Shown: one piece after another, positions 1,359 to 31,517 of the stretch | Layout: the number at the start of each line of letters is the position of its first letter | How positions within the stretch are numbered: position 1 is the stretch's first letter | Assembly: GCA_002069815.1 (NCBI GenBank) | Contig: MWCB01000016.1 | Coordinates: 1-33,545, forward strand | Reading direction: 5' to 3' | Source of the DNA: Tenericutes bacterium ADurb.Bin239 | GTDB taxonomy: Bacteria > Bacillota_I > Bacilli_A > RFN20 > CAG-826 | DNA length: 33,545 bases | Position numbers and translations under genes: made by a program | The notes under the pieces: model-generated | Seen by the model: only the letters and a program-made list of their open reading frames with translations | The model's database searches: none | Told to the model about the DNA's origin: nothing

Positions 1359-1361
1359 TAA

Positions 1362-2741: not shown

Positions 2742-2745
2742 ATAC

Positions 2746-4506: not shown

Positions 4507-4519
4507 TGTTCCATTCCTC

Positions 4520-6148: not shown

Positions 6149-6157
6149 AAGCACTCC

Positions 6158-6631
<474 letters not shown>

Positions 6632-8844: not shown

Positions 8845-8932
8845 AGGACTCCTTTCGAGACGGATTAACCGCTACCGATTTATTAGCATAAATAGGTAGA
8901 GTTTCTTTTCCTCGTGTAGTATTTTAACATGT

Positions 8933-8949
8933 TTACATTGCAAATGTAA
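8933..8949. promoter_or_regulatory. Perfect 7-3-7 inverted repeat upstream of the V-ATPase operon
   Basis: TTACATT-gca-AATGTAA is a perfect dyad about 90 bases before the first V-ATPase gene. On the minus strand a TAAAAT -10-like element (8922-8927) lies just downstream, so the dyad covers the expected -35 region, where a repressor or activator could act. No known operator family was recognised. Confidence 0.4.
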
Positions 8950-8992
8950 CACGATACGAAGTTGCGCGGATAAGAAAGTAATAAATAATTTA

Positions 8993-9015
8993 TAAAAAAG
9001 CCGCTTTTCGCGGCT
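8993..9015 (-). terminator. Rho-independent terminator of the EAL gene
   Basis: AGCCGC (9015-9010 on the minus strand) pairs with GCGGCT (9004-8999) across a five-base loop (GAAAA) and is followed by TTTTTT. It lies 27 bases past the stop of the EAL gene and insulates it from the V-ATPase operon. Confidence 0.85.
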
Positions 9016-9041
9016 AATATTTATGAAATATGAAATAAATA

Positions 9042-11480: not shown

Positions 11481-11500
11481 AGTAAGTGCGCCCACATTTG

Positions 11501-13230: not shown

Positions 13231-15051
13231 TTAACCACCATAAGTTAATCTTTGAAGTGAAAAATCATCAAAGAGCAGGTAGTTATTGGGATCCGATGAG
13301 GCTCTGCCATCATTGTTATTGATATTAATAAATACATTCAAATATGTCATATCAGATGAACCAGGATTATAGAAGTATCCAGTAGCGGTAGTCCATGTTT
13401 CGGTATTAACTTCATCAAACGACATACCAAACCAATTGAACAATGTTCCACCATTCTTAAATCCTATTACATCAATACCACCTTTTTGATATGTAGTACC
13501 AGCCTTGATTTTAAATGAGAATTTATAAATTCCCGCTTTTTTCATTTCGGGAACATTACCAAATAAATCAAAGGCAACATTGTTATTTTTGCAATAAACC
13601 TTAAGGAATCTATTATTTGCTTCTGTAATAATCTCACTACCTGTCGATGATTCTTCAATAAGAATTGTTCTTCCATTGTACCATCTATTATTTGCAAGAT
13701 TATCTGTGAAGCCGAAGTCTTCGCCTTCTAAATCACCCTGGCCTGCACTATCTACGTTGGTCGTTCCTACAATACCATCAACAACTTTAAATACTTGAAT
13801 ATTGTCAACCCAAATATAATTGTCTTCGCCGATACCACCTTCAGGCCAATATGTAAGGTTAAATGTATTGAATTTATCAACAGATTCTGCAGTCAAAGTA
13901 TATCTAAGTCTTACATTAGTGTACGCAGTAGTAGAAATTCCTGAAATATCTTTGACTACTAACCCAGCATCACTGAAGTTAATGCCGGTGCCAGCTACAG
14001 TTAAACCATGAAATCCTGTGTCCCACATATACCCTTTGATTGTGCCGTATCCACCACCTCCATTATTTAATGTTAGTGATGCTTCTGATGCTTTGATATC
14101 AAAACTGATTTCATATTCGCCAATTTCGCCAGCCCCACCAGTAACGGCCTTTTTCATAGTGGTATTCCCGGGCCACCACACAACTGCTGGAATCTTTAAA
14201 GCGGTATTATTTGCACCATCTTGCGCAATGTAATACCAGCCTCCAACACCGCCATTCTTGTCAGAATAGTTACCATAAGGAAAACGCGAGAATGTATTGT
14301 TAGCCTCAAGTTTGATACTTGTTCTTTCAAAGTCATAATTGAAATCAGCGCCCGTGTTTGCACCAGGGGTTGGACCAGATTTAGTTAACACTGTCCCCGA
14401 TGGATCTTCATAATAACCCGCGTTTGATGTCACGCCGCGTACTGTGATGTTAGTACCATCAAAGGCAAATGCTTTTAATTGTGCTTCGCTTAATGTGTAA
14501 TATAAGGCTGTGCTAGCATAAATTTCTGTGGAACCAAGAAAAGCCTTATATGATTCTGCGCCAGTAACAGCATTCCAAGATAAAACGTTTTCCGTAATTT
14601 TCACATTAGCGGGTCGTCTTAAAATGCTATATGTTACGCTAGCTCCACATCCGTGATCACACTCTGCTGTCGCGCTACCTTCTGTATCGGTGGTAGGATT
14701 TGTCACAACATAATTTGTGTAAGAATGGACGCCTGTTGGAGCGAGATATGCAATGTGTGTACTCGCTAAAGCATCACCAGCATACGCGCCTTGATCAACA
14801 AATGTGCCCCCTGGATTCGTCAGATATTGACGTAGGCAAGTGCAACAAGCCCAGAACTCTGCGTTTCCAGCTTCAACACACGTTGGGGCATTTCCAAGAT
14901 AATGATTACCGTGATGGTGACCACTTTCACACTCGGCAACACCACCCCCACCGGCGCGCGAACCAATACCATTATGTGCCGCAGGAACTACTATGCTTAT
15001 GCCTAAAGCTAGAGAAGCAACAATAGTTAGAAGTATTTTTTTCTTCTTCAT
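13231..15051 (-). CDS. Secreted carbohydrate-binding-like protein, paralogue of its upstream neighbour
   Basis: A 606-residue exported protein with a Sec signal peptide (basic MKKKK, hydrophobic LLTIVASLALGIS). After a Gly-rich linker come a Cys/His-rich segment (CESGHHHGNH, CCTCLRQY, CDHGCGAS), an FN3-like domain (about 142-225, VLSWNAVTGAESYKAF) and two jelly-roll-like sandwiches (about 235-430 and 435-600). The first shares IPAVVWWPGNTT and YEISFDIKASE with the upstream lipoprotein, and the second is collinear with it too. It lacks that protein's C-terminal esterase domain, a lipobox and LPXTG, so it is probably released or held non-covalently. AAAGGAGA precedes the ATG. A carbohydrate-binding role is inferred. 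Confidence 0.75.
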   Translation of the reverse strand: MKKKKILLTIVASLALGISIVVPAAHNGIGSRAGGGGVAECESGHHHGNHYLGNAPTCVEAGNAEFWACCTCLRQYLTNPGGTFVDQGAYAGDALASTHIAYLAPTGVHSYTNYVVTNPTTDTEGSATAECDHGCGASVTYSILRRPANVKITENVLSWNAVTGAESYKAFLGSTEIYASTALYYTLSEAQLKAFAFDGTNITVRGVTSNAGYYEDPSGTVLTKSGPTPGANTGADFNYDFERTSIKLEANNTFSRFPYGNYSDKNGGVGGWYYIAQDGANNTALKIPAVVWWPGNTTMKKAVTGGAGEIGEYEISFDIKASEASLTLNNGGGGYGTIKGYMWDTGFHGLTVAGTGINFSDAGLVVKDISGISTTAYTNVRLRYTLTAESVDKFNTFNLTYWPEGGIGEDNYIWVDNIQVFKVVDGIVGTTNVDSAGQGDLEGEDFGFTDNLANNRWYNGRTILIEESSTGSEIITEANNRFLKVYCKNNNVAFDLFGNVPEMKKAGIYKFSFKIKAGTTYQKGGIDVIGFKNGGTLFNWFGMSFDEVNTETWTTATGYFYNPGSSDMTYLNVFININNNDGRASSDPNNYLLFDDFSLQRLTYGG

Positions 15052-15116
15052 TTTTTAAACTCTCCTTTCTAAAGAATTTGTATATTTTTAAGCCCGCGTC
15101 AGGGCATAAAACCAAT

Positions 15117-17690
15117 TTAAAGTGTAGTAACCTCATATGGTTTAACTAAAGCAGCATTGACACATCTAATGATATTGTTTAAGTCGCTTTGTCCAACACC
15201 ATCAGGGACATACGTAATATCATTAATATCTTTGTCAAAGATAGCTGCCACCATTGTTAAACTAGCCATATATCGACCTAGACCAAACGAGAGATGGATA
15301 TCATCACGATGTAAAAGGTCCACGTTAAATGGCTGTTCAGCATTTTTAATTGCGGTCGTTTTAGGAATATATTTATCAAATTGGACCGAATAGAATCCTT
15401 CCATTACTTTTTGGTCGATCGTAGTGACATGTTCATACATTTCTTCCCGCCCAGAAAAACCACTTGCTTGCGCCGCAGCATCTAGATATAAAGGACCGGC
15501 ATTAAACACAAATGATGTATTGGGACCAACAATGTCACGTACACTCTCAGCAAAAGCGGACAAATTATTAAATGATGTGTTGTCTTTATAAACCGCTCCT
15601 GCTTGTTGGAAGGAAATAAAGTCCCAATGCGAGTGAAGTTTTAGCGCTGTTCTTAATGAGCAAAGTGGAATGAGATTGTACCATGCTTTACTCGTTTTAT
15701 TGTAGGCTCTTAAATCATAGTTTGCGTAATCGTTATTGTAGAAATCATAGTGTTGATTAATGGTACAGCCCCCAAAGAACAACACATAAATATTGATTTT
15801 AGATACGTCTTCACCAAGATTTTCGAGAATATTATAAATATATTCAACCGTATCATCGGTCGCCGAGTTACCAATCATTAACATATTCATAGTGGAATCA
15901 CCTCCTAAAACTAGGGCATATATTTCAACATCGTCGATAATGAGATAATTAGAATCACTGCCAACAGGATTTGTAAATGTGGCCGTGAAGAAAATATTAA
16001 TTACATCAAGCGCCGCGACTTCGTTTGTTAAAAATCTAACGGTGTATTGCGTATAAGTATCGGCACTAGCGGAAGTAACATCAATAAATACTTCTTCAGT
16101 TAGAGCAATCGGACTACCCGCTTTAAATCCCCACATTTTAAATGAGAATTCAGGATTTATTAATTCCGCACTCTTTTTCACTTTAATGTCCATTTCAAAG
16201 ACACCGCCTTGACCAAGTTTAGCAGGATTGCCCGCTAGATTTATTTGCGCTTTTGTATCAGTAACCGAAGCAATTTTTAGTGCTTGATTTTGATCTTCTT
16301 TGATGACCGCTGATGCTAGCGCATTATTTTCTGGCAAAATAGTGTTATCCGCGTACCATAAATTGTTTCCCATGGTGTAAATATTCCAACACTCAAAGTC
16401 GCCGCCAATGTTATTATCAACATTATCCGTTTGGACAACACCATCTATAACTTTAAAGACTTCGATATTATCAATAATGATGTAATTGTCTTCACCAATA
16501 TTTTGTTCAGGCCAATAAATTAAATTGAATTGATTATATGGAACATTAGAATTTAATGTGTATCTAAGTCTCACATTCGTGTATGCGCTTGTCGAAATAT
16601 TTGGAATATCTTTAATAACTAATCCAACTTCGTTAAACGAAACACCTGTGCCAGCAATAGTAATGGGGTCACTTGCATTATGAGTATTCCAAAGGTAACC
16701 AGTGATTTTACCGTAGTTTCCGTTAGCGGTATACGTTAATGAAGACTCGCTTGCTTTAATATCAAAACTAATTTCGTAAGTTCCAACCGCCCAACATCCA
16801 CTACCTAAATCTCTTTTTAAAGTAGTGTTCCCTGGCCACCACACAACCGCCGGAATTAAAGCTGCCATATTTCCGTCACTCTCTTGATGGATATAATAAT
16901 GACCACCTAGTCCATCATTCATATCCGACCAGTTACCGTAAGGGTAGTTGTTCCAACCACCAATTCGATTAAGTCTAATCCTACTATCATTTTCAAAGTT
17001 AGAATTATACGCTGATTGAATATTATCTTTCGCTCTTCTAAAGGCTTCGGTCGTGGACTTACCATTATATGTAAAGTATTCATCGCTACTTGTGTAGGCA
17101 TATACTTTGAAGTCACCACTTAAGTCATCTAAAGTAGTTACTTGGTACGTTGTTAATCCCCCAACATCTATTTCTTGGTTATTAAGATTGATGATATATC
17201 CTTCGGCGTTTGTAACGTCAGCCCAAGAAATAATATTACCAACCAAAGAAACAAAGGCAGGCAAGCGAAGAATTTTCTTTTGGATAGTTTCCGAGCATCT
17301 ACTACATGTGATAGTGTAACTACCTTCCGTTTCTACAGTTGGCTCCACAATGATAGGATCACCAAAAGAGTGACCTAAAGCATCAGTTAATTCTTCATAA
17401 CTATATGCACATTTTTCACAATAGTGTTCAATTTTGCCGCCTGTTGTACACGTTGCTTCCACAACTACTCTTTCTTTAGCAATATGCTTTTCTACTTCAA
17501 ATTTTTCGTGGCATTTAGTGCACTCTTTCCAGTGTTCAGTTTCATTAAATAAGTACGAACTACTTAATTCGTGGTCACAAACAGAAACAGGTGTTGATGA
17601 AGATACACTAGTTTCGGATTCACTCTTCTTTTCGCAACCAAAAAGGATTAGTGATGAACTTAATAATAGAAATAACAATTTCTTTTTCAT
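15117..17690 (-). CDS. Surface lipoprotein: Cys-pair repeats, FN3, two sandwiches and a C-terminal SGNH (DUF4886-like) domain
   Basis: An 857-residue lipoprotein (lipobox LFGC, lipidated at C19). Next come three CxxC pairs (C57/C60, C91/C94, C129/C132) of the kind repeated in surface proteins of Gram-positive gut bacteria, an FN3-like domain (142-215, NIISWADVTNAEGY), and two carbohydrate-binding-like sandwiches (230-430, 430-597). The last ~220 residues look like an SGNH hydrolase: LMIGNS with nucleophile S609, FFGG at 638-641, FISFQQAG near 691, and RDDIHLS with D796/H799. DUF4886 proteins carry this layout. Such domains often remove acyl groups from glycans; the substrate here is unknown. 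AAAGGAG lies before the ATG. Confidence 0.8.
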   Translation of the reverse strand: MKKKLLFLLLSSSLILFGCEKKSESETSVSSSTPVSVCDHELSSSYLFNETEHWKECTKCHEKFEVEKHIAKERVVVEATCTTGGKIEHYCEKCAYSYEELTDALGHSFGDPIIVEPTVETEGSYTITCSRCSETIQKKILRLPAFVSLVGNIISWADVTNAEGYIINLNNQEIDVGGLTTYQVTTLDDLSGDFKVYAYTSSDEYFTYNGKSTTEAFRRAKDNIQSAYNSNFENDSRIRLNRIGGWNNYPYGNWSDMNDGLGGHYYIHQESDGNMAALIPAVVWWPGNTTLKRDLGSGCWAVGTYEISFDIKASESSLTYTANGNYGKITGYLWNTHNASDPITIAGTGVSFNEVGLVIKDIPNISTSAYTNVRLRYTLNSNVPYNQFNLIYWPEQNIGEDNYIIIDNIEVFKVIDGVVQTDNVDNNIGGDFECWNIYTMGNNLWYADNTILPENNALASAVIKEDQNQALKIASVTDTKAQINLAGNPAKLGQGGVFEMDIKVKKSAELINPEFSFKMWGFKAGSPIALTEEVFIDVTSASADTYTQYTVRFLTNEVAALDVINIFFTATFTNPVGSDSNYLIIDDVEIYALVLGGDSTMNMLMIGNSATDDTVEYIYNILENLGEDVSKINIYVLFFGGCTINQHYDFYNNDYANYDLRAYNKTSKAWYNLIPLCSLRTALKLHSHWDFISFQQAGAVYKDNTSFNNLSAFAESVRDIVGPNTSFVFNAGPLYLDAAAQASGFSGREEMYEHVTTIDQKVMEGFYSVQFDKYIPKTTAIKNAEQPFNVDLLHRDDIHLSFGLGRYMASLTMVAAIFDKDINDITYVPDGVGQSDLNNIIRCVNAALVKPYEVTTL

Positions 17691-17702
17691 GGTTGTTCTC
17701 CT

Positions 17703-20063
17703 TTACTTAGCAATTATTTCTAACATATACACTTGATGTGGTTGCATTCTTAAACCGATTTTAGCTTCACCGTTTTTGACTGTTGTCACTATCCTTCTTT
17801 CTGTGTTTTGGGAAGAGGTTAGATAAACATCCGCTGTTTCAATGCCGTAATCGCGAAGTGCTTTTAAGATAAAACCTTTGGAAACTACGGCATTCTTAAC
17901 ATTAGTTAAGAAGATAGCAACATTTCCGTCTTTGTTTTTGTAAGCAGCGGTTACAATGTCTTCGACAGTCCACTCACCTTCTAAGGATGCCCTGCCAGTT
18001 GTCGCTATTGAAGTAGCGCTGTAGTTTGGATTTGAATATTCATACGTTGAGTAATCCGTATTTACATCGGGAGCATTTAGCATTTCCCCATAAATCATGT
18101 AATCTTTACCGTATGTGGTGCGCGCTTTCGACAAACGATTAACATAGTCAACCATTTCAAAATTGATTTGAGCCGCACCTGGTAATTTATTAGTGGGAAA
18201 ATATTCATAATTAAATTCATTGATTCCCCCATTAAGTGCAGTATAACCAGCGATGTAATAATAAGCATCGCCTAGTTCATCAAGTGGCACTAAGTATCCA
18301 TCTGTTCTAATCGCACCAAATTCGTGATAGACGCGCTCAAACATTGGAATCTTAATGGCAATGTTATTATCGACCATCCCTCTTATTTCATCGGTCTCCA
18401 TCCAGCCTAATGGCCCACCATTAGCTCTTGCTTGATAGAAATCGACATATGCAAGCGTTTTTTCCGTAATCATTTCGATACCAACCGAATAAAACCCGTT
18501 CAGGTCCGCTAAATCAGATGCGTTTTGGAGTTGTTTATAAAAACCATCTAGAATATTGACTTTCTTGCCATGAGAATGGGCCAAATCAAAACACTCAATC
18601 GGGTGAACAGCGGTAGCAAAAACGTCAAAATACAGCGCGTCAACGTTGTAAGTATCAAAATAACCTTGTTCGGTTTTATTACGATTATCTAGCCAATCTT
18701 CACTTTTAGGACATTGATAATAAAATGGGGTGCCATGAATATAAAACGCTAGTCTATCTTGTCGCGCATTTCTAATTGAATTATCGTAAAACATTTCTAA
18801 AGGGGAAATAGTATTAAATTCAAATACGCTGTAGGCGTGATTGTATTCTCTAACAAGATCAAAATAGTTTTTGTTTTGATAAATAGCAATATTTAAAATA
18901 TCATCTTCAATCCGTGATGCAATCGCGTCATAAGTCGGAATCATATCAACCCACGAAGAAACGTCAGGTCTAAAACCAAAAATTGTTAATCCGGTTTTTT
19001 CAAAAAGTTTTCTATTAATGTCTTGACGGTCTTCGGCCCGACCAATCAATGTAACCCATTTTTGCTCCAGTGCCCAAGTCTTATACCTGCTAGCGGCTTC
19101 TTCCCATTTACCCATAACTAGATTAGCTAAAATGATATCATAATCAAAATTAACAGCGGTTTTGCCGAGATCATCGACATGATGATAAATACTCATCCGC
19201 AGCTCTTCTTCACCAATTCCAGTAAATGTAAAGTTTTTAATATAGTCTTCTTGGTCTTGAGTCATCCAGTAAAAACCGCCTAAGTTTTCACTGTAATAAC
19301 TTCCAAATTGCATTGTCATACCCCAACCAGATGGATAAGTTGACATACTAACGGGATAACCCAAGGGGGATGATTTTCCAATTCCTAATCCATAGACATC
19401 ATTAAAGTTTTGGGTTGGATTTAAGAACTTAAACCCCGTCGCAAATGGTGCGGCATAAACATCTTTTTCTTTATCTCCTAATGTTTTAATTCCTTCAACG
19501 ATTGGATATTCGACGTCCATAACCGAAAGGTCGCCATTGTAAGTCATATTGCTAAGTCTTACTCTAAACTTAACTTCATCGGAATTCTTCGCTAGCGAAA
19601 TAGTACAGGTCGCATCTGCTCTTGAATTAAAAGTGTACACAAATTGAATTGCTTTCTTTTCGGCAGTATTTTCAAGGATTGTCATTACATAATTATCCGA
19701 AAGCAACCCTTGTGAATTTCTGTCCACTAAACTTAATCTAATCGGAGGTGCTTCCGTTGCCCCTTTAACTAAATATAATTTTGATTCTTTGTTGGCAAAT
19801 TCATTAATCGAACCATTGGGATTAAGGACTAATCTTACTCTTTCATTTTCAATCGTTATTAAAGCACCCTCTTCTAGTGAAAGTTCATTTTTCCCATCAA
19901 TAGGAAGTGATGAGGTTCTTATTCGTGAGTTGTCATTAAAATACGAACTCATATTAATAAATTCTTTCATATCTCTCTTGCCTCCGTTTTCGTTACAACT
20001 ACAGATGGAAAAAGCAATCGCGGCTGTCATCAAACAAATGAATAGTGGTTTTTTAATCGTCAT
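17703..20063 (-). CDS. Lipoprotein with glycoside-hydrolase-like TIM barrel (DUF6259-like)
   Basis: A 786-residue exported protein with a hydrophobic signal and a plausible lipobox (ICSC, then NENGG). Residues ~50-330 look like an all-beta sandwich (IENERVRLVLNPNGSINEF), as placed before the barrel in GH31/GH36-type enzymes. Then comes WEEAASRYKTWALEQKW, typical of DUF6259-type proteins, and a barrel with VDALYFDVFA (an aspartate at a strand end, candidate nucleophile), VGIEMITEKTLAYVDFYQAR and YGEMLNAP. A C-terminal beta domain closes the protein (NVAIFLTNVKN). The family name is from memory and the activity unassigned; a surface glycosidase is the simplest reading. It starts two bases after the stop of the upstream gene. 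Confidence 0.65.
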   Translation of the reverse strand: MTIKKPLFICLMTAAIAFSICSCNENGGKRDMKEFINMSSYFNDNSRIRTSSLPIDGKNELSLEEGALITIENERVRLVLNPNGSINEFANKESKLYLVKGATEAPPIRLSLVDRNSQGLLSDNYVMTILENTAEKKAIQFVYTFNSRADATCTISLAKNSDEVKFRVRLSNMTYNGDLSVMDVEYPIVEGIKTLGDKEKDVYAAPFATGFKFLNPTQNFNDVYGLGIGKSSPLGYPVSMSTYPSGWGMTMQFGSYYSENLGGFYWMTQDQEDYIKNFTFTGIGEEELRMSIYHHVDDLGKTAVNFDYDIILANLVMGKWEEAASRYKTWALEQKWVTLIGRAEDRQDINRKLFEKTGLTIFGFRPDVSSWVDMIPTYDAIASRIEDDILNIAIYQNKNYFDLVREYNHAYSVFEFNTISPLEMFYDNSIRNARQDRLAFYIHGTPFYYQCPKSEDWLDNRNKTEQGYFDTYNVDALYFDVFATAVHPIECFDLAHSHGKKVNILDGFYKQLQNASDLADLNGFYSVGIEMITEKTLAYVDFYQARANGGPLGWMETDEIRGMVDNNIAIKIPMFERVYHEFGAIRTDGYLVPLDELGDAYYYIAGYTALNGGINEFNYEYFPTNKLPGAAQINFEMVDYVNRLSKARTTYGKDYMIYGEMLNAPDVNTDYSTYEYSNPNYSATSIATTGRASLEGEWTVEDIVTAAYKNKDGNVAIFLTNVKNAVVSKGFILKALRDYGIETADVYLTSSQNTERRIVTTVKNGEAKIGLRMQPHQVYMLEIIAK

Positions 20064-20065
20064 AA

Positions 20066-22768
20066 TTATACACCCCGCTTCTTTCTTCTAAATACAATGA
20101 TAGTGGTTGATGTTCCAATTGACGCTAAGGCAACTCCACCGATAGAAAGACCAATCATTAATTTGGTGTTATTTGTATCATTTTGGGAAATGCCTGACCC
20201 GCCTACCACAAGATGCAGTGTTGTCTCATATGTTTGGTCTAAGATCGTTGCTCTAATGGTAAGATCCGTCTCACCTTCTTTTTTAGGAAATAGATAACCA
20301 TTTGAATACACACAAATAGAGAAATCATCAAAGAAAAATCTTAAATCAGTATTAAGCTCTTCACGCCTATCACCTTCATATATGGCGTAAACATAAACAG
20401 AATAAATTGATTCAATGTCAAGTGTTGTAACTGTTTCATCAAGGGTGGCAAATAATTGAACAGGATAAACCGCTTGTTTAAGTTCAAAGTCATCAACTTG
20501 CATTCCATAACCAAATTCAGCATCACCCTGAATATGAAGGTTAACTAAATATCGACTCGCAGTTACACAATCAAAGACAATTGATAATTTGCCGTAGGCA
20601 AAACTACCATATGAACAATCAAATTCGCGCGAAATTACATCACCAACTATTTGACCGTCAGCATCAACGGGTGTGGCACTTAATGTACAAAGTCCCCCGT
20701 TTGCAGATAACCGACCTTCAACACCTTCCGCTGCATATCTATTTATATATACGGATAATGCATATTTTCCAGGGGTTAAGTTAACATATTGTCCGATATC
20801 AGCATACGCTGTTTTTGGAACGTGAGCATCCCAGAAAATTGGTGCCATATACCATAAGTTAGCGTACCCACTCCGACGATAAGTATTAGTTTGACCATCA
20901 TCGCCACTACCGCCGCCAGTTCCGCTAAATGACCAGAAACTATGTTCATTTTGAGCTTCAAAGGAACCGTCAATTAGTAAATTGTCAGTATCAACAACCA
21001 AATCCACATAACCAATTCCTATTGAATCGTTATATTGTACAGTAGCGTAAATGCGGCTAGTGCCGCTAGATATACCTAGCACATGGTAGCCGGTTGTTAA
21101 TTCGCGCACAAACACTACTTTTTTATTTTCTGAAACAACTGTTTTGGTCGTTTCATTTTCAAATATATAATTATCATTTTCATCAAACACATCAACATTA
21201 ACGGTTGTGTATGTTGTGGTTGAAATAGCTTGTGCGGTACTTACATCTACTCTTTGAATATGTTTATTAGCGTTAATGTTTGCATCATTAACTACTAAAG
21301 ATAGTTGATTAGTTGTTAGCGTTTTGCCAAAAACTTCTACGTTACATTTAACAGTGGAGTTTCCTTCGGCAAGCGGCACTAAATTGTTGTTTAAATCGGC
21401 AATAAATATTCCAGCGGTACCAAATTCATAATGCGTAGCAACATGATTTTCCATTGGAATAGAAACAAATTCATCATTATCTTTAAATTTGACAGTAATA
21501 TTTGGATTCATATTTTTGCCAGTCTTATAACCCGCATTTATCGCGAGTTTAGCTTCTTCTGGTTCTAAAACTTCCCAAACGCGCACGTCGTCAACGTGGT
21601 AGCCATTAATTTGGCCTTCGTGTTCAATCGCGGTTGTAAATATAACGAGTCTATTTTCAACATAATTGTCAGTAAATAAGACTGCTTGTTTTTCGACCCA
21701 ACTTGTACCAACATCCGTAAATGAAACGCGATCAAGGTTTTTCTTAAACATCGCGGTGTTGTTATCGGTGCCCGAATTAACGCCATTTGAATCTTGGAAA
21801 GTAACGGTTATTGGAGAAGGATTAGCGATCGGATTCCATAACTTAGCAAAAAAACTTACTACATAATATGTATTTTTCTTTAGTGTTAAATCTTGACCAA
21901 TCGCTGGTCTTTCGCCCGCATGCAAACCATTATTACTAAATGTTAAAAACGCGTTCGCGGTTGAACCATTGTTACCCCACCCATTACGGTCAGTTCCTGC
22001 CCACGAGAATGATTTCCATACTTTCATTCTTTCAAATGTCGAATCAACAGGGGATGTCCCTAAATTTTCAAATCCGGGATCATTCACAAATTGAACACTT
22101 TTATCTCCTATTTTACAATCGGTTGGCGCAGTGCTAGAGGTATCAATAAAATCATCAATATTTATTTCTTTTAAAGAAACATCATCTATCAAATAAAAAC
22201 CATCTTTACCAGTGCTCCGACATTGACAATGGATGGCAGCTCTAATTGCGGTTAATTCATTGGTATAAATAAGAATCGATATTTGTTCATATGTGGTCGT
22301 AGTGTCATTATATATATTTTGTGATACCGCTATCCATTTATCGCTTGCTAATGGGTTGCGATAACCAAGGCATAGGTATCCGTTTTCAGCTGGACCGCTT
22401 CGTTTTACATATGCGGACCATAAATAATAAGTATGCGATTTAACGTATACATCCTGCTAAATAGCAGGATAATCATTAACATTAAGGTGCCCATCTTCTG
22501 AATCATATTGGAGTTTAACTGCTCCCCCTAAGCTTCTACATTCATCATTTACTGTCGTTCTTTCAACCATTAAATTAGTGAAATTTGTATCGGAAAAAGT
22601 TTCCACAGTGGTAAATGGGATTAACTCTTGCGAAAAGTCAGTGTTATGTAAACATTCTTCCCCTAACGGCGGATAACTACGTTCTGCTTTAGTCTCTAAA
22701 ACTCTTAAAGAGGCCGGAAAAGATAAAAGAGCAGCAAATAATAATATTGTTCTTTTTATTTTTCGCAT
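20066..22768 (-). pseudogene. Membrane-anchored multi-domain carbohydrate-binding-like protein, interrupted by an in-frame UAG
   Basis: One 900-codon frame runs from ATG 22768 to TAA 20066 but carries a single in-frame TAG at codon 104 (22459-22457). Codons 1-28 encode a signal peptide. Three CBM4/9-like sandwiches (about 35-197, 225-405, 600-767) each contain an I-x-Q start of a strand: I-stop-Q at 103-105, I-G-Q at 290-292 and I-G-Q at 658-660. Bacterial Ig-like segments fill the rest, and a C-terminal helix followed by RRKKRG anchors it to the membrane. GGAGGAAAAATA precedes the ATG, which overlaps the kinase stop by one base. Everything after the UAG is undamaged, so the lesion is recent, is read through, or is a sequence error. 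Without readthrough only a 103-residue secreted fragment is made. Confidence 0.75.
22451..22470. repeat. Perfect 9-2-9 palindrome containing the in-frame UAG
   Basis: ATCCTGCTA and TAGCAGGAT are perfect reverse complements separated by AA. In the mRNA the UAG is the first triplet of the 3' arm, just after the two-base loop. The next codon is CAG, matching the CAR part of the UAG-CAR-YYA readthrough context, but the following GAU does not match YYA. Confidence 0.95.
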
Positions 22769-23688: not shown

Positions 23689-24353
23689 TATTTAATCGCC
23701 TCCCTAAGTTTATGAATACCCTCTTCAATTGAAAGGTCTTTCCTAAATACACTTGAGGTTCCTGCCACAAAAATATTAGCTCCCTTTTCTCTCATAATTT
23801 TTGCATTTTCAAAACCAACATTCCCATCAACTTCAATCATTACATCTTTACGATTATTTTCATCTAATAGTTTTCTCATGTCCGCTATTTTATTTAATGT
23901 TTCTATAACTAGTTTTTGACCAGCAAAGCCAGGGTTTACTGTCATTACAAGAACAAAATCAATCTTTTTAATGTATGGAATAATTTTACTAGCGGGCGTT
24001 TGCGGTTTAATTGCTAGTCCTGCTTTCGCACCTTTGCTATGAATTAGATCTAGACATTCTTTAATCTTGTCAGTTGATTCAAGATGAATAGACATTAAAT
24101 CGCCTTTTCTTAAATCAAACCAGTTTATTTTTTCTAAAGGATTTACGACCATAAGATGATAATCCAGTGGAATATTACATTTTTCGCGATACTGCTTACT
24201 AATACTATTGCTAAGCATAAAATTAGGCACAAAAACACCATCCATAACATCAATATGGAGATATTCAATACCGTTACGCACAAACGCTTGTAACATTTCT
24301 TCAATATCATAAATTGAAGCACACATCATAGAAGGTGAAATGTTGCTTTTCAT
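23688..24353 (-). CDS. Ribulose-phosphate / allulose-6-phosphate 3-epimerase family protein
   Basis: A 221-residue TIM-barrel epimerase. Metal and catalytic segments are all present: HIDVMDGVFVPN, DYHLMV, VMTVNPGFAGQ, IEVDGN and VAGTSSVF. The N-terminus PSMMCAS and the PGFAGQ form (with Ala) recall E. coli AlsE (D-allulose-6-phosphate) as much as Rpe (D-ribulose-5-phosphate, usually SVNPGFGGQ). The reaction is inversion at C3 of a ketose phosphate, feeding the pentose phosphate pathway or glycolysis. It lies between isomerase and kinase genes with two bases after the isomerase stop and no clear ribosome site, so translation is probably coupled. A housekeeping rpe is not excluded but would be oddly placed. 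Confidence 0.88.
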   Translation of the reverse strand: MKSNISPSMMCASIYDIEEMLQAFVRNGIEYLHIDVMDGVFVPNFMLSNSISKQYREKCNIPLDYHLMVVNPLEKINWFDLRKGDLMSIHLESTDKIKECLDLIHSKGAKAGLAIKPQTPASKIIPYIKKIDFVLVMTVNPGFAGQKLVIETLNKIADMRKLLDENNRKDVMIEVDGNVGFENAKIMREKGANIFVAGTSSVFRKDLSIEEGIHKLREAIK

Positions 24354-24355
24354 AA

Positions 24356-26116
24356 CTATTTGTATAAGGGACCTAAATCACGACAAGCTAAAATATCGCT
24401 GGCGACATTATCACTTTCTCCGTAATACGCCCATACGTGCGGTCTAAATATCCTTTCTTTTTCGATGTTATGCAATGAAACTGGAATTCTTAAAGCGCTT
24501 GCTAGCGCTAAGGCTTCTGTTCCAATGTGACCTGACACTAATGCACAGTGGTTTGCACCCCAATTAGCCATAATTGAATAAACATCCTTAACATTTCCGT
24601 CCCCACTTACTCGTGGCGCAAAGAAGGTTGAAGGCCAGGCGCGATCCGTACGTTTTTCAATTGGATCAGTGATATCTCTTGGAAGATCAACAGTGTGCCC
24701 TTCCACAATTTGTAAAACCGGTCCAATTCCTTTCACTTTATTTAAACGCATCATGGTAACTGGAAGTTCCGCTCTTGTTACATAGTGTGAAGACATTCCC
24801 CCACCTTTAAAATATTCAAGGTTTGCGGGGTGATAAGTTACAGCTTTTAATGTGTTTTTTATATCTTGATCCGTAACTTTCCACCACTCCTTAATAGCAG
24901 GTTTTCCTTTTTCTTTCATCTCTCCCGCCCCATCAAGAGCAGCAGCACCCGAATTATTTAGGTGAATAATTCCGTTTTTAGCTTTGCCCATCAATTCTTT
25001 GCCAGTGACTCTTTTTACTGATTCATTTGACCAATATGTTCTTACATCGGCAAAAATGGTTGCTTTATTAGTAAGAAGTGTCCCAAACATCATTGTTAAT
25101 CCATTCAGTGTATCGTTCTCCGTTGCAAATGGAGTCGGTTGTTTAATGCCGCTCCAATCAAAAGAAGTATTAATGATTGATTCAGCAAAGTCACAATTTG
25201 GTAGCCAATCAGTCCATTGTCTTTGACCTTGGAAACCGCCGACTAAAGCATTTTTACCTAAACTTTCTTCGTAATATCCTTTGTCAGCAAGTTTTTTGTT
25301 GCCATACATTATATCTTTAATAATAATGGCCATCTTTATTGAATATTCCCAATCCTTTTTATATTCTTCTGCAGTATGTCTAAGTTCTTTTGGATTATAA
25401 AAATCTTCGCCTTGCTTAATGTTCTTTTTCACCCATTTCGCGGCAATTTCGTATTCTTTTTCATCAAAGATGTTCTTTTTAATTCTTCGTAAAACTTCAG
25501 TCATATCAACCCATTCCGCTCGCATTCCTAAATACTCTTGTAAAAGCATTGGATCTAAAAGTGAACCAGGAATACCCATTGAAACATTACCGATGGCGAC
25601 ATATGATTTATTTCGCATTTGCGCGACCGCATTAACTACTTTTGCGTAACATATTAACTTTTCTTTGACATCGTCCGTAACTGTATCATCATCCATGTCT
25701 TGTACTTCTTTACCGTAGATTGAAAACGCTGGTAGTCCTCTTTCAGCGTAAGCCGACATAATACACGCTAAATAGACTGCGCCTGGTCTTTCGGTACAGT
25801 TTGTGCCCCACACTGCTTTAATTGTATGTGGATTCAAATCCATTGTTTCGGTCCCAAAACAAAATATTGGGGTCACTGATAATGAACCTGTCACTCCTAA
25901 TCTTGCAAATTCTTCATCAACCGCACTTGCTTCAGCCGCGTTTGTAATTGTTGTTTTAGAAATAACAACTTCAATTGGCTTACCTGCTAAATCAAAAACA
26001 TTTTCTTGAATGATTTTTTTAGCTTGGGCCGCCATTTGCCGACATTTTTCTTCAATTTTATAACGAACGCTATCTCGTCCGTCATTAACCATCCTAATTC
26101 CAATAATTGTTTTCAT
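24356..26116 (-). CDS. fucI: L-fucose / D-arabinose isomerase
   Basis: A 586-residue FucI-family isomerase aligning end to end with the E. coli enzyme, including the shared C-terminus GPLYK. The Mn2+/catalytic residues (E. coli E337, D361, H528) correspond to E333 in ATENDTLNG, D357 in FADVRTYW and H523 in NWGANH. Also diagnostic are GGFQGQRQWTD, SFDWSG and NNSGAAALDG. These enzymes interconvert L-fucose/L-fuculose and equally D-arabinose/D-ribulose, and some convert D-altrose to D-allulose. The absence of a fuculokinase/aldolase pair nearby and the presence of GH172 favour D-arabinose here. It starts directly at the GH172 stop with a GGAGGAAAAATAA leader. Confidence 0.95.
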   Translation of the reverse strand: MKTIIGIRMVNDGRDSVRYKIEEKCRQMAAQAKKIIQENVFDLAGKPIEVVISKTTITNAAEASAVDEEFARLGVTGSLSVTPIFCFGTETMDLNPHTIKAVWGTNCTERPGAVYLACIMSAYAERGLPAFSIYGKEVQDMDDDTVTDDVKEKLICYAKVVNAVAQMRNKSYVAIGNVSMGIPGSLLDPMLLQEYLGMRAEWVDMTEVLRRIKKNIFDEKEYEIAAKWVKKNIKQGEDFYNPKELRHTAEEYKKDWEYSIKMAIIIKDIMYGNKKLADKGYYEESLGKNALVGGFQGQRQWTDWLPNCDFAESIINTSFDWSGIKQPTPFATENDTLNGLTMMFGTLLTNKATIFADVRTYWSNESVKRVTGKELMGKAKNGIIHLNNSGAAALDGAGEMKEKGKPAIKEWWKVTDQDIKNTLKAVTYHPANLEYFKGGGMSSHYVTRAELPVTMMRLNKVKGIGPVLQIVEGHTVDLPRDITDPIEKRTDRAWPSTFFAPRVSGDGNVKDVYSIMANWGANHCALVSGHIGTEALALASALRIPVSLHNIEKERIFRPHVWAYYGESDNVASDILACRDLGPLYK

Positions 26117-27205
26117 TTATTTTTCCTCCGGTACATAATCGTATCTTTTTTCCTTTTCCTCTAATTTAGGAAATTTAATATGTGGTTCTTTTTGATAATA
26201 AAACGCTACTGATTTTATATCTGCGTCACGATGTTGATATTTTTTAAAATCTTCTCTCCATCCAATTGCATCAACCGTAACTCTAATATCTTTTTTAAAT
26301 CCAATTGCGTCAACAATATGGAAACGATGCATAGAGAATCGTTTTGGTTTCGTTTTAACTTCAGCGAGTGATAATCCTAAGTAAGGTGTTTGATATAAGA
26401 TTTCATCAGATCCAGGAATAATACCATAAGCTCCAAAATTCCAAGCACCACCAAAATAATCTTCCGTTCCGTTATCACAGATTGTTGGATATTTTTTATC
26501 ACCATCAAGGTAGAATTTAACTTCTCCTTCACCCCACCATCTATCGTGGAGTTCGCTCCACGCTAAATAAGTGCCAACATACACACCTTCACCCTTCACC
26601 CCATCTAAAATAGTATGAACTGGATATTCAGGGGTCGTTAAAGTGTGACGATATTGCGCATGAAAATAACCGACATCGTCATCAACTTTTTCTTCAGTAA
26701 AGGTAATCTTATAGGCGACGATCCACGTCATATCATCACCTTGATTTTCAAGTTCAATTCTAAATCCTTTTCGAAAAGGCATTTCAAAATAAGAATTAAG
26801 TCCCCGATGCGGGGCCACCGCAATTGGTAAAGAATTAACAAGATGCGGATGCGCATCATGGCCCATACAAAAGAACATACCTAGTGGACATTCAACTGAC
26901 GGTTCTTTTTCATCGTCCCAATAGATTCTTAATACTAATTCTGAGTATTTACGTCTATCGCTAGTGAGGAAGATATGTTTAATAATTCCGCTTCCTTCAT
27001 AGTTAGCGAGAACTCGAGTACTATTAGCCTCAATTCTTACAAACGGACAAACTTTATACCCTTCTTCTACACAATTTTTAGAGAAAAATAATTCAGGATC
27101 TTGCGGATTTATTTTAGCCATCGCTCCTTTTCCTTTTTCGCCTGTTGGATTTTCGGCTGATATCATGCGTGTTACAATGCCTGTTTTTTTGAATAATTCT
27201 TTCAT
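26117..27205 (-). CDS. GH172-family (DUF2961) glycosidase, cytoplasmic
   Basis: A 362-residue DUF2961/GH172 protein. Hallmarks are GSGIIKHIFLTSD, PSVECPLGMFF, AWSELHDRWWGEGEVKFYLD and NGTEDYFGGAWNF; the glutamates in WGEGE and GTEDY are the likely catalytic pair. Characterised GH172 enzymes include exo-D-arabinofuranosidases and difructose-anhydride/alpha-D-fructofuranosidase enzymes. No signal peptide is present, so it would act on imported oligosaccharides. The frame is open to 27286, but that overlaps the permease gene; the ATG at 27205 follows the permease TAG by 19 bases and has AGAAAGGAA upstream. Close coupling to fucI, a kinase and an epimerase suggests D-arabinofuranosides as substrate. 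Confidence 0.88.
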   Translation of the reverse strand: MKELFKKTGIVTRMISAENPTGEKGKGAMAKINPQDPELFFSKNCVEEGYKVCPFVRIEANSTRVLANYEGSGIIKHIFLTSDRRKYSELVLRIYWDDEKEPSVECPLGMFFCMGHDAHPHLVNSLPIAVAPHRGLNSYFEMPFRKGFRIELENQGDDMTWIVAYKITFTEEKVDDDVGYFHAQYRHTLTTPEYPVHTILDGVKGEGVYVGTYLAWSELHDRWWGEGEVKFYLDGDKKYPTICDNGTEDYFGGAWNFGAYGIIPGSDEILYQTPYLGLSLAEVKTKPKRFSMHRFHIVDAIGFKKDIRVTVDAIGWREDFKKYQHRDADIKSVAFYYQKEPHIKFPKLEEKEKRYDYVPEEK

Positions 27206-27224
27206 CTTCTTCTTTAATTCCTTT

Positions 27225-28115
27225 CTATTTTGTTCCTGTAAGCGCAATTCCTTCAATAATCTTTTTTTGGAATATTGAAAGAACAATCACTGGGATAACA
27301 AGCGACATTAAGGTCGCAGCAATAACGACCCCATAATCGCTTGAATATGAATCGTTTAGAGTTTGAATAATTTGCATTACTTGCACTAGCGCAGGATTAT
27401 CGACAACCGTTAAAGTTGGCCATACAAAGGAGTTCCATGTGCCCATAAATGTGCCGACTCCAATAATAATCATTGGTGTAACCGACATCGGTAGAAATAT
27501 TTTAAAGAAGATACCAATCCGACTACTGCCATCAATTTGTGCTGCTTCTTCAATGTTGTTGGGAATATTTAAGTAAAATTGTCGAAAAAAGAATATTTGA
27601 TAACCATTTGCTAATCCAGGAACGAATAAGACAAAAATGGTATCAACCATATTTAGAATATTAACGACCCTAATAGAAGTAAGCATGATGGTAATCCCTG
27701 GAACAAACATCGGGAACAGTAAAAAGGGCCACACAAACTTTTTGCCTTTAAAATCAATTCTCGCTAGAGCATAAGCCGCTAACATATTGACAAATAGGCT
27801 ACCCACAGTGGCTAAAAGCGCTACAAGAAGTGTCATAAATACTGCGCCCATAAATTTTGATCCATTAACATCAACATCAAACACTTTAGTGAAATTTTCG
27901 AAAGTCCACTTGCGCGGGAAAAAGGAAATATCATCTAAAACAAATAGTTCGCGTTTTTCTTTAAAGGCAGCGGGCAACATCCAAATAATGGGGAAGATAA
28001 TCGTAAAACAAATTATAATAGCGATAGCACTCCAAATAACTTTCTTGACAATCGCTTTTTTCTTGTCGCTAGAGATCTTTTTCTTCGGTTGTAAGTTCAT
28101 TGTTTTGGTGCTCAT
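27225..28115 (-). CDS. Sugar ABC transporter permease (MalG/UgpE-type)
   Basis: A 296-residue inner-membrane permease with six predicted helices. The EAA loop reads EEAAQIDGSSRIGIFFKIFL, typical of the MalG-like partner in carbohydrate uptake (CUT1) importers. An N-terminal basic stretch precedes the first helix (AIIICFTIIFPIIWMLPAAF). It starts one base after the stop of the MalF-type gene and is followed by GH172. Together with the other permease it forms the membrane channel for an oligosaccharide; no ATP-binding subunit is encoded in the locus. Confidence 0.95.
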   Translation of the reverse strand: MSTKTMNLQPKKKISSDKKKAIVKKVIWSAIAIIICFTIIFPIIWMLPAAFKEKRELFVLDDISFFPRKWTFENFTKVFDVDVNGSKFMGAVFMTLLVALLATVGSLFVNMLAAYALARIDFKGKKFVWPFLLFPMFVPGITIMLTSIRVVNILNMVDTIFVLFVPGLANGYQIFFFRQFYLNIPNNIEEAAQIDGSSRIGIFFKIFLPMSVTPMIIIGVGTFMGTWNSFVWPTLTVVDNPALVQVMQIIQTLNDSYSSDYGVVIAATLMSLVIPVIVLSIFQKKIIEGIALTGTK

Positions 28116-28116
28116 A

Positions 28117-29049
28117 TTACAATTCCTCGCTCTTTTTGCTCCGAATTAGACGAAAGGCGACTAAATTAATGGTGACAATAATTGACATCACGATCAGTGA
28201 TCCAGCAATAGTAGCGTTTTGTGGTCGCGCTGAATCCCTGAACGAATTAAATAAGTATAGCGACGGTGTTAGGGTCATATTCATTGGACCACCTTGAGTA
28301 ATCATATAAGGAACATCCATCATTTGTAATGAACCAGTAATGAGATTAACGAGCATCAAAATAATAATATTGCGAATTGACGGAATTGTTATTCTAAATG
28401 TTTTAGTCCAAAAGCCCGCTCCATCAATTTCGGCGGCTTCGTAATATGTTCGAGGAACATTTAATAATGCCGCATACATAACAATTGTGTTATAGCCAAA
28501 GCCTAACCAAAAAGTAGGTACTAAGATTGCTACGATTGGCCAATAACCTTGAGTGGTAAATGCAATTGGAGCACCGCCAGCTAGATGAATTAATGAGTTA
28601 ATTAAACCGCCTCTAAAATTAATTAGAAATAAAAAGATAATCGAAGCGATAATACCTGATATTAAACACGGGATATAGATTAAAACTTTAATTGCATCCG
28701 CTAATTTGACATTTAATTTTCTTAAGAGTGAGGCAAAGAAGAATGAGGCAAGCATCATCACTGTTACACTAATCAGGGTAAAGAACGCTACGTTACTAAA
28801 TGATTTTAGAAAATCAGGCGTTTTAAAGATATAATCAAAATTCGCTAAATTGTTAAATGCGCCTGTATTGTAATCTTGAAGTGATCTAACAAGCGCCATT
28901 ATTAAAGGAATATAAGCAAACGTAGTTAGAAGCAAAATAGCGGGGGCCACTAAGATCCAACCACTGGGAGCGTCACGATATTTATATCTATCACTCCTTT
29001 TTTTCTCTTCTTTCAATTTTATTGCATTATATTCTTCTATCATTACCAT
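28117..29049 (-). CDS. Sugar ABC transporter permease (MalF/UgpA-type)
   Basis: A 310-residue permease with six predicted helices and the MalF-type EAA loop YEAAEIDGAGFWTKTFRITI. The N-terminal cytoplasmic tail is charged (KLKEEKKRSDRYKYRD), and the first helix APAILLLTTFAYIPLIMALV is typical of the family. It follows the binding-protein gene after three bases. Its partner is the MalG-type permease downstream. The specificity comes from the binding protein and cannot be read from this gene. Confidence 0.95.
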   Translation of the reverse strand: MVMIEEYNAIKLKEEKKRSDRYKYRDAPSGWILVAPAILLLTTFAYIPLIMALVRSLQDYNTGAFNNLANFDYIFKTPDFLKSFSNVAFFTLISVTVMMLASFFFASLLRKLNVKLADAIKVLIYIPCLISGIIASIIFLFLINFRGGLINSLIHLAGGAPIAFTTQGYWPIVAILVPTFWLGFGYNTIVMYAALLNVPRTYYEAAEIDGAGFWTKTFRITIPSIRNIIILMLVNLITGSLQMMDVPYMITQGGPMNMTLTPSLYLFNSFRDSARPQNATIAGSLIVMSIIVTINLVAFRLIRSKKSEEL

Positions 29050-29052
29050 TCC

Positions 29053-30450
29053 TTATTTATCGTAATCGTATTTCGGGTTTTCGGGATAAGATGCCCGCGA
29101 CATAATTGTATTAATATTATTAATTGCGCTATTTAGTGCTTGCGCATATAATCCATCAAACGCACCTTTTTTACAGTTAAGTTCCATTACTTCAATCATT
29201 TTGCCAAATTCTTGGGCGACATCCCATGGGAAGGTCGCTTCGGGAATCCCAACGGCCGCGACTTTATTACAAGTATCAAACCAATCTTGCGGAACATTTA
29301 ATTCAACCGTTTCTAAATATTCTTGAACGGAGACTGATGTTGCGGCTTTTGAAAAGTAAGCTTTAATAAAATATTGCCCAGTTCTTTCGGCGCTTTCAGT
29401 AAACATCCAGTTTAAGAACTTGGCCGCTAAGTCTTTATTTTTACTTTCTTCTGACATAACATAGCACCATCCACCATTACTTGAAGTGCAGCTTTCTTGA
29501 TCACCAGTAAGAGTAGGAATCGGGGCAACACCAATATTATTAGCAATAGCGGTATCTTCGCCTAAGTAATCGTAGACTTCAGCAAATCCCCAACTACCTG
29601 AATATGTCATCGCTAAAGTACCGTCGCATAAAGCATCAACGATATATGTGTATCCTTCACTCGTTAATGCAGCGGTTGGACAATAGTTATTTGAAAACAT
29701 ATTGTAGAAGAATTGACCAATATTCTTAAACCCGGTGGCGGCTGGTTCTTGATTAAGTCTTATCGTTCGCCAATCATCTTCAACCACTAGACCCCCCGTT
29801 GTATTTTGTTGTAATCCGTATGTAACCCACGTTGCTTCATACGCTCCTAGTGGAAGTCCACATGGATACTGTCCTTTTTTAATTGTTCCTGAACTAACTA
29901 ATTTGGAACATGCGTCATATAATTCATCAAACGTTGTAGGTACACTAGTAACACCCGCTTGCGCTAACAAATCCTTGCGATAAAAGAATAAACTTCCTGG
30001 TTCTACGTTCCAAGGATAAGCATAGAGGTGGTCACTATATGTACACATTTCTTTAAAAGCGGGAACAATGTCATTTATTGCTTTCTCCGTTAAATAACTT
30101 TCAAGCGGAGCGGCGTGATTGCCTTGAATATGTGAGTTGTATAATTCCGCATACGTTGCCATGTATAAGTCGGGAGCGCGCCCATTTTCGCGAGAAGTGG
30201 TAAGCGCAGTCGCATAATTTGCTTGAGTGAAAAAGTTTACTGAAACTTGGATTCCATCAGTTAAATCAGCATTAAAATCATTCACTAGTTCCATTAAATG
30301 ATCTTTGGCCCATTTTTCAAATTCGCGAGCATAAATAGTTATTTTGGTTGCGCCTTCTTCAATGTTGGTTTGACTTTTACCGCCACTGCAACCTGTAATT
30401 GAACAGATGGTTGTTCCTAATATAATTAGTGATAATAAGCGTTTTTTCAT
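29053..30450 (-). CDS. Sugar ABC transporter substrate-binding lipoprotein
   Basis: A 465-residue family 1 solute-binding protein with a lipoprotein signal (SIITG-type lipobox ITGC, then SGGKSQ), anchored outside the membrane. Typical features are TKITIYAREFEKWAKDHLME at the first strand, LYAYPWNVEPGSLFFYRKDLL at the inter-lobe hinge and FLNWMFTESAERTGQYF near the C-terminus. Aromatic residues (W, Y) are frequent around the expected cleft, as in oligosaccharide binders. It has a GGAGGAACGACA leader and starts 13 bases after the regulator stop, so it depends on the promoter upstream of the LacI gene. The ligand is inferred to be an oligosaccharide cut by GH172. Confidence 0.93.
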   Translation of the reverse strand: MKKRLLSLIILGTTICSITGCSGGKSQTNIEEGATKITIYAREFEKWAKDHLMELVNDFNADLTDGIQVSVNFFTQANYATALTTSRENGRAPDLYMATYAELYNSHIQGNHAAPLESYLTEKAINDIVPAFKEMCTYSDHLYAYPWNVEPGSLFFYRKDLLAQAGVTSVPTTFDELYDACSKLVSSGTIKKGQYPCGLPLGAYEATWVTYGLQQNTTGGLVVEDDWRTIRLNQEPAATGFKNIGQFFYNMFSNNYCPTAALTSEGYTYIVDALCDGTLAMTYSGSWGFAEVYDYLGEDTAIANNIGVAPIPTLTGDQESCTSSNGGWCYVMSEESKNKDLAAKFLNWMFTESAERTGQYFIKAYFSKAATSVSVQEYLETVELNVPQDWFDTCNKVAAVGIPEATFPWDVAQEFGKMIEVMELNCKKGAFDGLYAQALNSAINNINTIMSRASYPENPKYDYDK

Positions 30451-30463
30451 TGTCGTTCCTCCA

Positions 30464-31465
30464 CTATATTGTTTTTACTGATTCCCCAATTATAAGTTGG
30501 GCATCAATTGTTGTGATTTTTCCTTTATCTTTTGGTGCTTTCATCCTGTCTAACAACGAATTAACAACTGCTTCTGCAATTAAATTTAAGGGTTGGTTAA
30601 CGATGGTTAGTTTTGGTTTAAATAGTCCCGTCAGCATAATGTCGTCAAACCCAATTAAGGAGACATCATCGGGAACTTTGATGTCTTTTTCATTCATATA
30701 AAAAATAGTGCCAAGCGTCGAAATATAGTTAGATGCAAAGATACCAGTATATTTCTTTTTGCTTAAAATTTCTTGTACTTGTTGATAAGCATATTCAACT
30801 CTTTCATCATAAGTAAAGGCATCAACCTCAATGTTATGTTTTTCAGCAAATTCCACAAAACCTTTATAACGTTCGCGGCCAGTGAAAGAGTTCCAGTTAT
30901 TGTAAATAATCGCCACTTTTTTGTGACCATGTTTTAAAAATTCGTTACACGCTAATCCAGCGGCTTTTCTGTTGTTTAACAAAACAAAATCAAAACCATC
31001 AAGCCCATCAACATATTTATCAACGAAAACGACTTTGTTATTGTTTAGTGACTTGTAATTAGTGCTGTCTCTGCTGGCAGGAACAACAATAATTCCATCC
31101 ACTCTTCTTACAATCATGTTGTTAATGATTTTCTTTTCTTTTTCGACATCAAAATTGTGTTCATTTAATATAACGCTGTAATCATTTAATTCTAACTTTT
31201 GATTAATTTCCGACGCTAAGTCGCCATAAAATGTATTCGAAAATGAAGGAATAATGACGCCAATTGTTTTGGTTGTGCCAGTTGCTAGACCGCGCGCATA
31301 CTCATTTACGACATATCCTAGTTTAGATATTGCTTCTTCAATCTTAACTTTATTCGCGGCTTTCACCGCTTTTCCATTTAAATAATTAGAAACAGTACCA
31401 ATAGAAAGACCTGTCATTTTAACGATATCTCTGATCGTTGGAGTGGGATTGTGTTCTTTTTTCAT
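30464..31465 (-). CDS. LacI-family transcriptional regulator of the sugar locus
   Basis: A 333-residue LacI/GalR repressor. The helix-turn-helix is at the N-terminus (TIRDIVKMTGLSIGTVSNYL), followed by the hinge helix (YARGLATGTTKTIGVIIPSF). The periplasmic-binding-like ligand domain shows SNTFYGDLA, GIIVVPAS and VSLIGFDDIMLTGLFKP. It is the first gene of the co-directional sugar locus, and a perfect 12-base operator lies 41-52 bases upstream, so autoregulation together with the transporter and enzymes is likely. The inducer is unknown, perhaps a pentose or its phosphate. The ribosome site is weak (GAGAGA, 13-14 bases from the ATG). Confidence 0.94.
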   Translation of the reverse strand: MKKEHNPTPTIRDIVKMTGLSIGTVSNYLNGKAVKAANKVKIEEAISKLGYVVNEYARGLATGTTKTIGVIIPSFSNTFYGDLASEINQKLELNDYSVILNEHNFDVEKEKKIINNMIVRRVDGIIVVPASRDSTNYKSLNNNKVVFVDKYVDGLDGFDFVLLNNRKAAGLACNEFLKHGHKKVAIIYNNWNSFTGRERYKGFVEFAEKHNIEVDAFTYDERVEYAYQQVQEILSKKKYTGIFASNYISTLGTIFYMNEKDIKVPDDVSLIGFDDIMLTGLFKPKLTIVNQPLNLIAEAVVNSLLDRMKAPKDKGKITTIDAQLIIGESVKTI

Positions 31466-31505: not shown

Positions 31506-31517
31506 TGAACCGGTTCA
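31506..31517. promoter_or_regulatory. LacI-family operator O1
   Basis: TGAACCGGTTCA is a perfect 12-base palindrome with the central CG typical of LacI-family operators. It lies at the predicted transcription start of the regulator gene, where bound repressor would block initiation. Confidence 0.8.

Follow-up and report, generated by a model that had tools for sequence, protein, structure and literature searches.

A probable D-arabinofuranoside catabolic operon with a cytoplasmic GH172 enzyme in Tenericutes bacterium ADurb.Bin239

Introduction

Mycobacterial and related cell walls have D-arabinan as their signature polymer, and D-arabinose is a rare mirror-image sugar. To our knowledge, only few enzymes that attack D-arabinan have been known. 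The D-arabinan locus of Microbacterium arabinogalactanolyticum has a Gram-positive layout, in which an ABC importer and a cytoplasmic GH172 exo-alpha-D-arabinofuranosidase are combined with an isomerase and a kinase leading to D-ribulose 5-phosphate, together with GH183 endo-D-arabinanases and a GH116 exo-beta enzyme (PMC10509167). PUL42 of Dysgonomonas gadei, from the Bacteroidota, combines GH172 with a fucose-isomerase homologue that was abundant during growth on D-arabinan; it encodes DUF4185/GH183 enzymes and has three GH172 proteins (PMC10115798). The alphaFFase1 locus of Bifidobacterium dentium also contains LacI, an ABC importer and GH172, with a GH32 partner, and no FucI, kinase or epimerase was named in that operon (PMC8605356).

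Here we describe a locus in a window of 33,545 nucleotides (the whole stretch of DNA analysed, contig C16; 36% G+C) from Tenericutes bacterium ADurb.Bin239, a gut-type bacterium with a small genome (1.29 Mb, 94% complete). The GH172, importer, isomerase and kinase set of D-arabinan PULs is present in the window. With the Microbacterium locus it shares the layout, the importer, a cytoplasmic GH172 on the same side of the family tree, and an isomerase and kinase predicted to yield D-ribulose 5-phosphate. However, where that locus has GH183 and GH116 enzymes, the window has DUF6259 and DUF4886 lipoproteins and its own Rpe. Our locus apparently works like the Microbacterium one; what sets it apart are the outer enzymes, where it has the DUF6259 protein, and apparently the kinase, which is of the PfkB type. 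The difference from D. gadei PUL42 lies in the single cytoplasmic GH172 and the ABC importer, and that from the B. dentium locus in a GH172 on the other side of the tree.

Results and Discussion

Gene content of the locus

Pfam/NCBIfam searches and a check of the open reading frames placed all locus genes within 13231-31465 on the minus strand, in agreement with the co-directional gene set proposed in the first-pass annotation:

30464..31465, minus strand: LacI-family repressor (Pfam LacI and Peripla_BP_3; best NCBIfam model RbsR-type, below cut-off)
29053..30450, minus strand: substrate-binding lipoprotein of a CUT1-type sugar ABC importer (SBP_bac_1/8)
28117..29049, minus strand: ABC permease 1 (BPD_transp_1; UgpA-like)
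27225..28115, minus strand: ABC permease 2 (BPD_transp_1; UgpE-like)
26117..27205, minus strand: cytoplasmic GH172 (DUF2961), predicted exo-alpha-D-arabinofuranosidase (Pfam, PDB scores, motifs, tree)
24356..26116, minus strand: three-domain FucI-type isomerase, predicted to convert D-arabinose to D-ribulose (NF008220; PDB match; own clade with other cassettes)
23688..24353, minus strand: ribulose-phosphate 3-epimerase, the second copy of the genome (Ribul_P_3_epim; orthologue scores)
22768..23688, minus strand: PfkB/ribokinase-like kinase, predicted D-ribulose 5-kinase (PfkB; TIGR02152 below cut-off; G613 orthologue passes)
20066..22768, minus strand: exported CBM/Ig-like protein with a C-terminal membrane anchor, TAG-interrupted (reading frame; comparison with L022)
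17703..20063, minus strand: DUF6259 lipoprotein with a GH129/GH36-like fold, candidate surface glycosidase (Pfam, AlphaFold, Foldseek)
15117..17690, minus strand: lipoprotein with a CBM-like region and a C-terminal DUF4886 SGNH-hydrolase-like domain (Pfam DUF4886)
13231..15051, minus strand: secreted CBM-like protein (paralogy to the DUF4886 protein)

The four exported genes come after the PfkB kinase gene. Pfam/NCBIfam detected no ABC ATPase in the locus; three MalK-type ATPase matches and a transketolase are encoded elsewhere in the genome. A separate L-arabinan/L-arabinose operon was found on contig C14 (L145:2261-8827), with ArfA (GH51), a GH43-type arabinanase, an FGGY kinase, AraA and AraD; with it, the genome appears equipped for both arabinose enantiomers. 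Elsewhere in the window, a V/A-type ATPase operon occupies 717-8844, with a PAS-EAL protein beside it at 9042-11495. At the window end, a TnsA-like endonuclease domain (PF08722; 32966-33541) adjoins a Fic-domain gene (31685-32737), and this pair is a possible mobile-element neighbour.

The GH172 enzyme

The GH172 protein matched Pfam DUF2961 at 266 bits (cut-off 27). Its start was taken as the ATG at 27205 (362 aa) and not the TTG of the open reading frame at 27286, as relatives begin at the identical residue; a signal peptide was not evident. Solved DUF2961 members have a double jelly roll, and all PDB matches of the protein were DUF2961/GH172-type structures. The nearest was ExoMA1 (8ic8), an exo-alpha-D-arabinofuranosidase, at 261 bits, while DgGH172c, BACUNI and alphaFFase1 reached 97-114 bits (alphaFFase1, 97). 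The catalytic residues of alphaFFase1 are E270, E291, D292 and W298 (PMC8605356); the window protein keeps these E/E/D/W active-site motifs, with WWGEGE and GTEDYFGGAWN aligned to them.

Placement of the enzyme in a family tree had been proposed as a check on the first-pass reading. Our tree of 96 sequences, a quick search with ExoMA1 and alphaFFase1 on long branches, placed it in a clade of five members (support 100) on the side of the D-arabinofuranosidase ExoMA1, away from the fructofuranosidase. The other side held alphaFFase1, BACUNI, DgGH172c and the majority of the GH172 proteins from the window's family, and the split was supported at 100. ExoMA1 prefers alpha-D-Araf over alpha-D-Fruf (PMC10509167), and from its sequence the window GH172 is predicted to be an exo-alpha-D-arabinofuranosidase. 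However, DgGH172c is itself active on alpha-D-Araf in published work despite its position on alphaFFase1's side, so that D-arabinofuranosidase activity is found on both sides of the tree.

The tested alphaFFase1 acts on alpha-D-fructofuranosides as well (PMC8605356), and the operon could in principle serve such substrates (difructose anhydride), with GH172 acting like the B. dentium enzyme, which also lies in a LacI/ABC operon (PMC8605356); in L121, from a genome of the same taxonomic order, GH172 is near a GH32 gene. However, the scores and the tree separate the two enzymes, the locus has no GH32, and freed fructose would need no FucI, ribokinase or Rpe, all of which are conserved in the cassette. 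Fructofuranoside use is highly improbable here, and an alphaFFase1-like function was rejected on score, clade and partners.

Importers beside other GH172 genes varied. At eight loci of the window's family (L006 and L008-L014), alphaFFase1-side GH172 adjoins permeases 40-59% identical to those of the window, which suggests, from sequence, one importer type common to two GH172 classes. Two ExoMA1-side GH172 of the same taxonomic order (L121:5106-18555 and L122:6936-13187) lie beside a family-5 (oligopeptide-type) ABC importer, and in L121 FucI and the GH32 gene are also adjacent to GH172.

From D-arabinose to the pentose phosphate route

The isomerase passed NF008220 (860 bits, cut-off 775) and fell below TIGR01089 (785 versus 850). 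Its best PDB match was a D-arabinose isomerase (762 bits), and a specific assignment to that activity was considered and withdrawn, as the protein is not sister to D-arabinose isomerase in the FucI tree. There it groups with the other cassettes in a clade of their own (100/100). FucI proteins from genomes of the window's family belong to different FucI clades, and two of their genes have FucU and an FGGY match as neighbours. The tree does not separate substrates, and FucI sequence alone does not tell D-arabinose from L-fucose use. The epimerase scored 197.7 against TIGR01163, below its cut-off of 212.6, and passed the subfamily model NF004076 (206 versus 165); its orthologues in two cassette-bearing Bacillota MAGs, G612 and G613, pass TIGR01163 (rpe). 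A housekeeping Rpe copy lies on contig C1.

FucI accepts L-fucose, L-galactose and D-altrose, whose furanosides resemble D-arabinofuranosides, and the epimerase has a match to the D-allulose-6-phosphate epimerase model as well, so that glycans of these sugars might be what is taken up. However, Rpe models outscored AlsE in every cassette copy and none reached the AlsE cut-off, on which ground the D-altrose/allulose route was rejected, and same-family FucI genes with fucose-type neighbours belong to the other clades mentioned above. It had been claimed earlier that fuculose aldolase and FGGY fuculokinase are missing. The absence of the aldolase extends to the whole genome, where AraD is the only Aldolase_II protein found, whereas FGGY kinases are absent from the locus and present elsewhere in the genome. 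Since the only class II aldolase is AraD, L-fucose use is unlikely and was discarded; for this group of sugars as a whole we consider uptake very unlikely.

The kinase matched TIGR02152 at 269 bits, below the cut-off of 299.65; the G613 orthologue passes at 300.4, and that of G612 stays below at 290.6. The literature searched yielded no D-ribulose kinase of the PfkB family; the AraB ribulokinase accepts D-ribulose (PMC12307932). A Bacteroidota MAG cluster (L094) resembles the window in having LacI, GH172, FucI and a pentulose kinase. However, it carries a FucP-type symporter and an AraB-type FGGY ribulokinase (714 bits, cut-off 428) where the window has the ABC importer, the ribokinase-like kinase and Rpe. 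As L094 pairs GH172 and FucI with a ribulokinase, the step after FucI would most simply be phosphorylation of a pentulose, and by analogy the cluster independently supports a route from D-arabinose through D-ribulose to D-ribulose-5-P. The earlier reading of D-arabinofuranoside to D-arabinose to D-ribulose is supported by the GH172 grouping and the gene order, with the substrates of kinase and epimerase predicted.

The L094 cluster (1430-10251) contains two GH172 genes and DUF6786 in addition to FucI, the symporter and the ribulokinase; DUF6786 was also seen between GH172 and FucI in L097, and it may participate in the use of D-arabinose.

The kinase is closest to ribokinases and LacI to RbsR, and the G613 cluster carries a nucleoside-hydrolase-like gene, all of which would suit a kinase and epimerase serving D-ribose (from nucleosides, for example), with GH172 and FucI serving another sugar. 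However, ribose-5-phosphate isomerase was not found in the window's locus, FucI accompanies the epimerase in 4/5 cassettes (the fifth, in G614, is on short contigs), and the nucleoside-hydrolase-like gene appeared in one cluster only. Such a division of labour is extremely unlikely. In G613 that gene lies between LacI and SBP (L158:14406-15293).

Exported proteins

All four exported proteins of the first-pass annotation were there, and the first, listed as two pieces, proved to be a single frame (22768-20066) split by an in-frame TAG at 22457-22459, with the frame continuing on both sides. TAG ends other genes here, including fucI, and is therefore read as a true stop, which is either a nonsense mutation or an assembly error. 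Relatives of this protein carry CBM_4_9 and Big_2 domains.

The DUF6259 domain was found by Pfam in 7/7 aligned members, and it was the only Pfam match of the protein above cut-off; by sequence, no GH129/GH36 relationship and no PDB relative were detected. An AlphaFold model from 7 sequences reached pLDDT 70 and pTM 0.75, with parts of the barrel weaker (5 sequences gave pLDDT 42). Its top Foldseek matches were GH129 (E 1.9e-19), with GH129/GH36 at TM ~0.5 and 8-14% identity, and the model shows an N-terminal beta domain, a barrel and a C-terminal beta domain as in GH129/GH36. The protein's invariant acidic residues include D480 and D588, which would be candidate catalytic residues. Judged from the model, the protein is a candidate surface glycosidase; comparison with a viral fold library contributed no further useful match. 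Relatives were found in none of the plasmids or viral contigs searched, and no naming paper for DUF6259 was found in the literature searched.

The DUF4886 domain scored 117 bits in Pfam, with the GNS and DxxH motifs intact, and a DUF4886 protein is also present in the G612 cluster. The product of the last gene (13231..15051) is paralogous to the stretch 107-597 of the DUF4886 protein, with 39% identity across 506 aa.

Promoter and regulation

A consensus match to a promoter was found just 5' of lacI at 31551-31523 (minus strand), with the -35 TTGACA (31551-31546), 17 bp, and the extended -10 TG-TAATAT ending at 31523. It scored 10/12 and stood first among the top matches, and no other match with this score had a TG preceding the -10. 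Directly 3' of the -10 is a perfect 12-bp palindrome, TGAACCGGTTCA, at 31506..31517, with a single exact copy within the window, and it is a probable LacI operator. In G612 and G613 the corresponding site 5' of lacI carries another palindrome, ATGAAWCGWTTCAT, which recurs ahead of the following unit; a search of 159 loci found it in these two only. The arrangement of promoter and palindrome fits autorepression by LacI, which would leave one promoter for the entire operon.

Conservation of the cassette

Gene order in relatives, another check suggested earlier, was conserved: the cassette was found in four other Bacillota MAGs (G611-G614), one of them in identical order. These are the four nearest GH172 carriers, and all encode a DUF6259 homologue, while DUF6259 was not found in five carriers of more distant GH172 or in 391 other genomes drawn from the phylum. 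Five genomes, window included, share GH172, Rpe, RbsK, the ABC permeases and DUF6259, in differing orders. FucI is beside the cassette in four of the five; for G614, two short contigs were read and FucI was seen on neither. From LacI to DUF6259, G611 (L022) has its genes arranged as in the window, and the next gene encodes a relative of the DUF4886 protein as well as of the last gene product. The same gene set occurs in G612, G613 and G614, rearranged or distributed over contigs. Recurrence in four other genomes, at 34-71% protein identity, is more than chance.

The search for GH172 had no match in the three other genomes of the genus, and 14/279 genomes of the order carry it, window included, the nearest at 40% identity. 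The separate clade of cassette FucI and the patchy GH172 suggest that the cassette was transferred as a unit; the argument comes from phylogeny and patchiness only, and the base composition of the window gave no sign of a foreign island.

Proposed pathway and significance

Taken from sequence comparison, the locus is probably a D-arabinofuranoside catabolic operon, serving import and fermentation. Surface or anchored proteins (CBM-like, DUF6259 glycosidase, SGNH-type esterase) would bind and trim a D-arabinofuranose glycan, and the CUT1-type importer, with its ATPase encoded elsewhere, would bring in short oligosaccharides. Cytoplasmic GH172 would then free D-arabinose from the non-reducing end, FucI would convert it to D-ribulose, the ribokinase-like kinase would give D-ribulose 5-phosphate, and the dedicated epimerase would pass this as D-xylulose 5-phosphate to the pentose phosphate route. 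LacI would repress the operon at the promoter palindrome.

Whether the operon feeds on D-arabinan polymer is close to an even call. GH116 (PF04685) was not found in the 94% complete genome, where controls matched; GH183 (DUF4185) was absent among the locus proteins, and a genome-wide profile search for it had no match in this genome or in any control genome. Counting against the D-arabinofuranoside reading as a whole are a locus lacking GH183 and GH116, the substrate ambiguity of FucI, the action of alphaFFase1 on alpha-D-fructofuranosides, and a kinase for which the literature searched gave no PfkB precedent on D-ribulose.

If our reading is true, feeding on D-arabinose glycans would extend beyond Actinomycetota, Bacteroidota and Patescibacteria to small-genome Bacillota via a conserved cassette. 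It raises the question of which D-arabinose glycan is on offer in these habitats, and points to a conserved surface enzyme (DUF6259) and a kinase as testable new activities.
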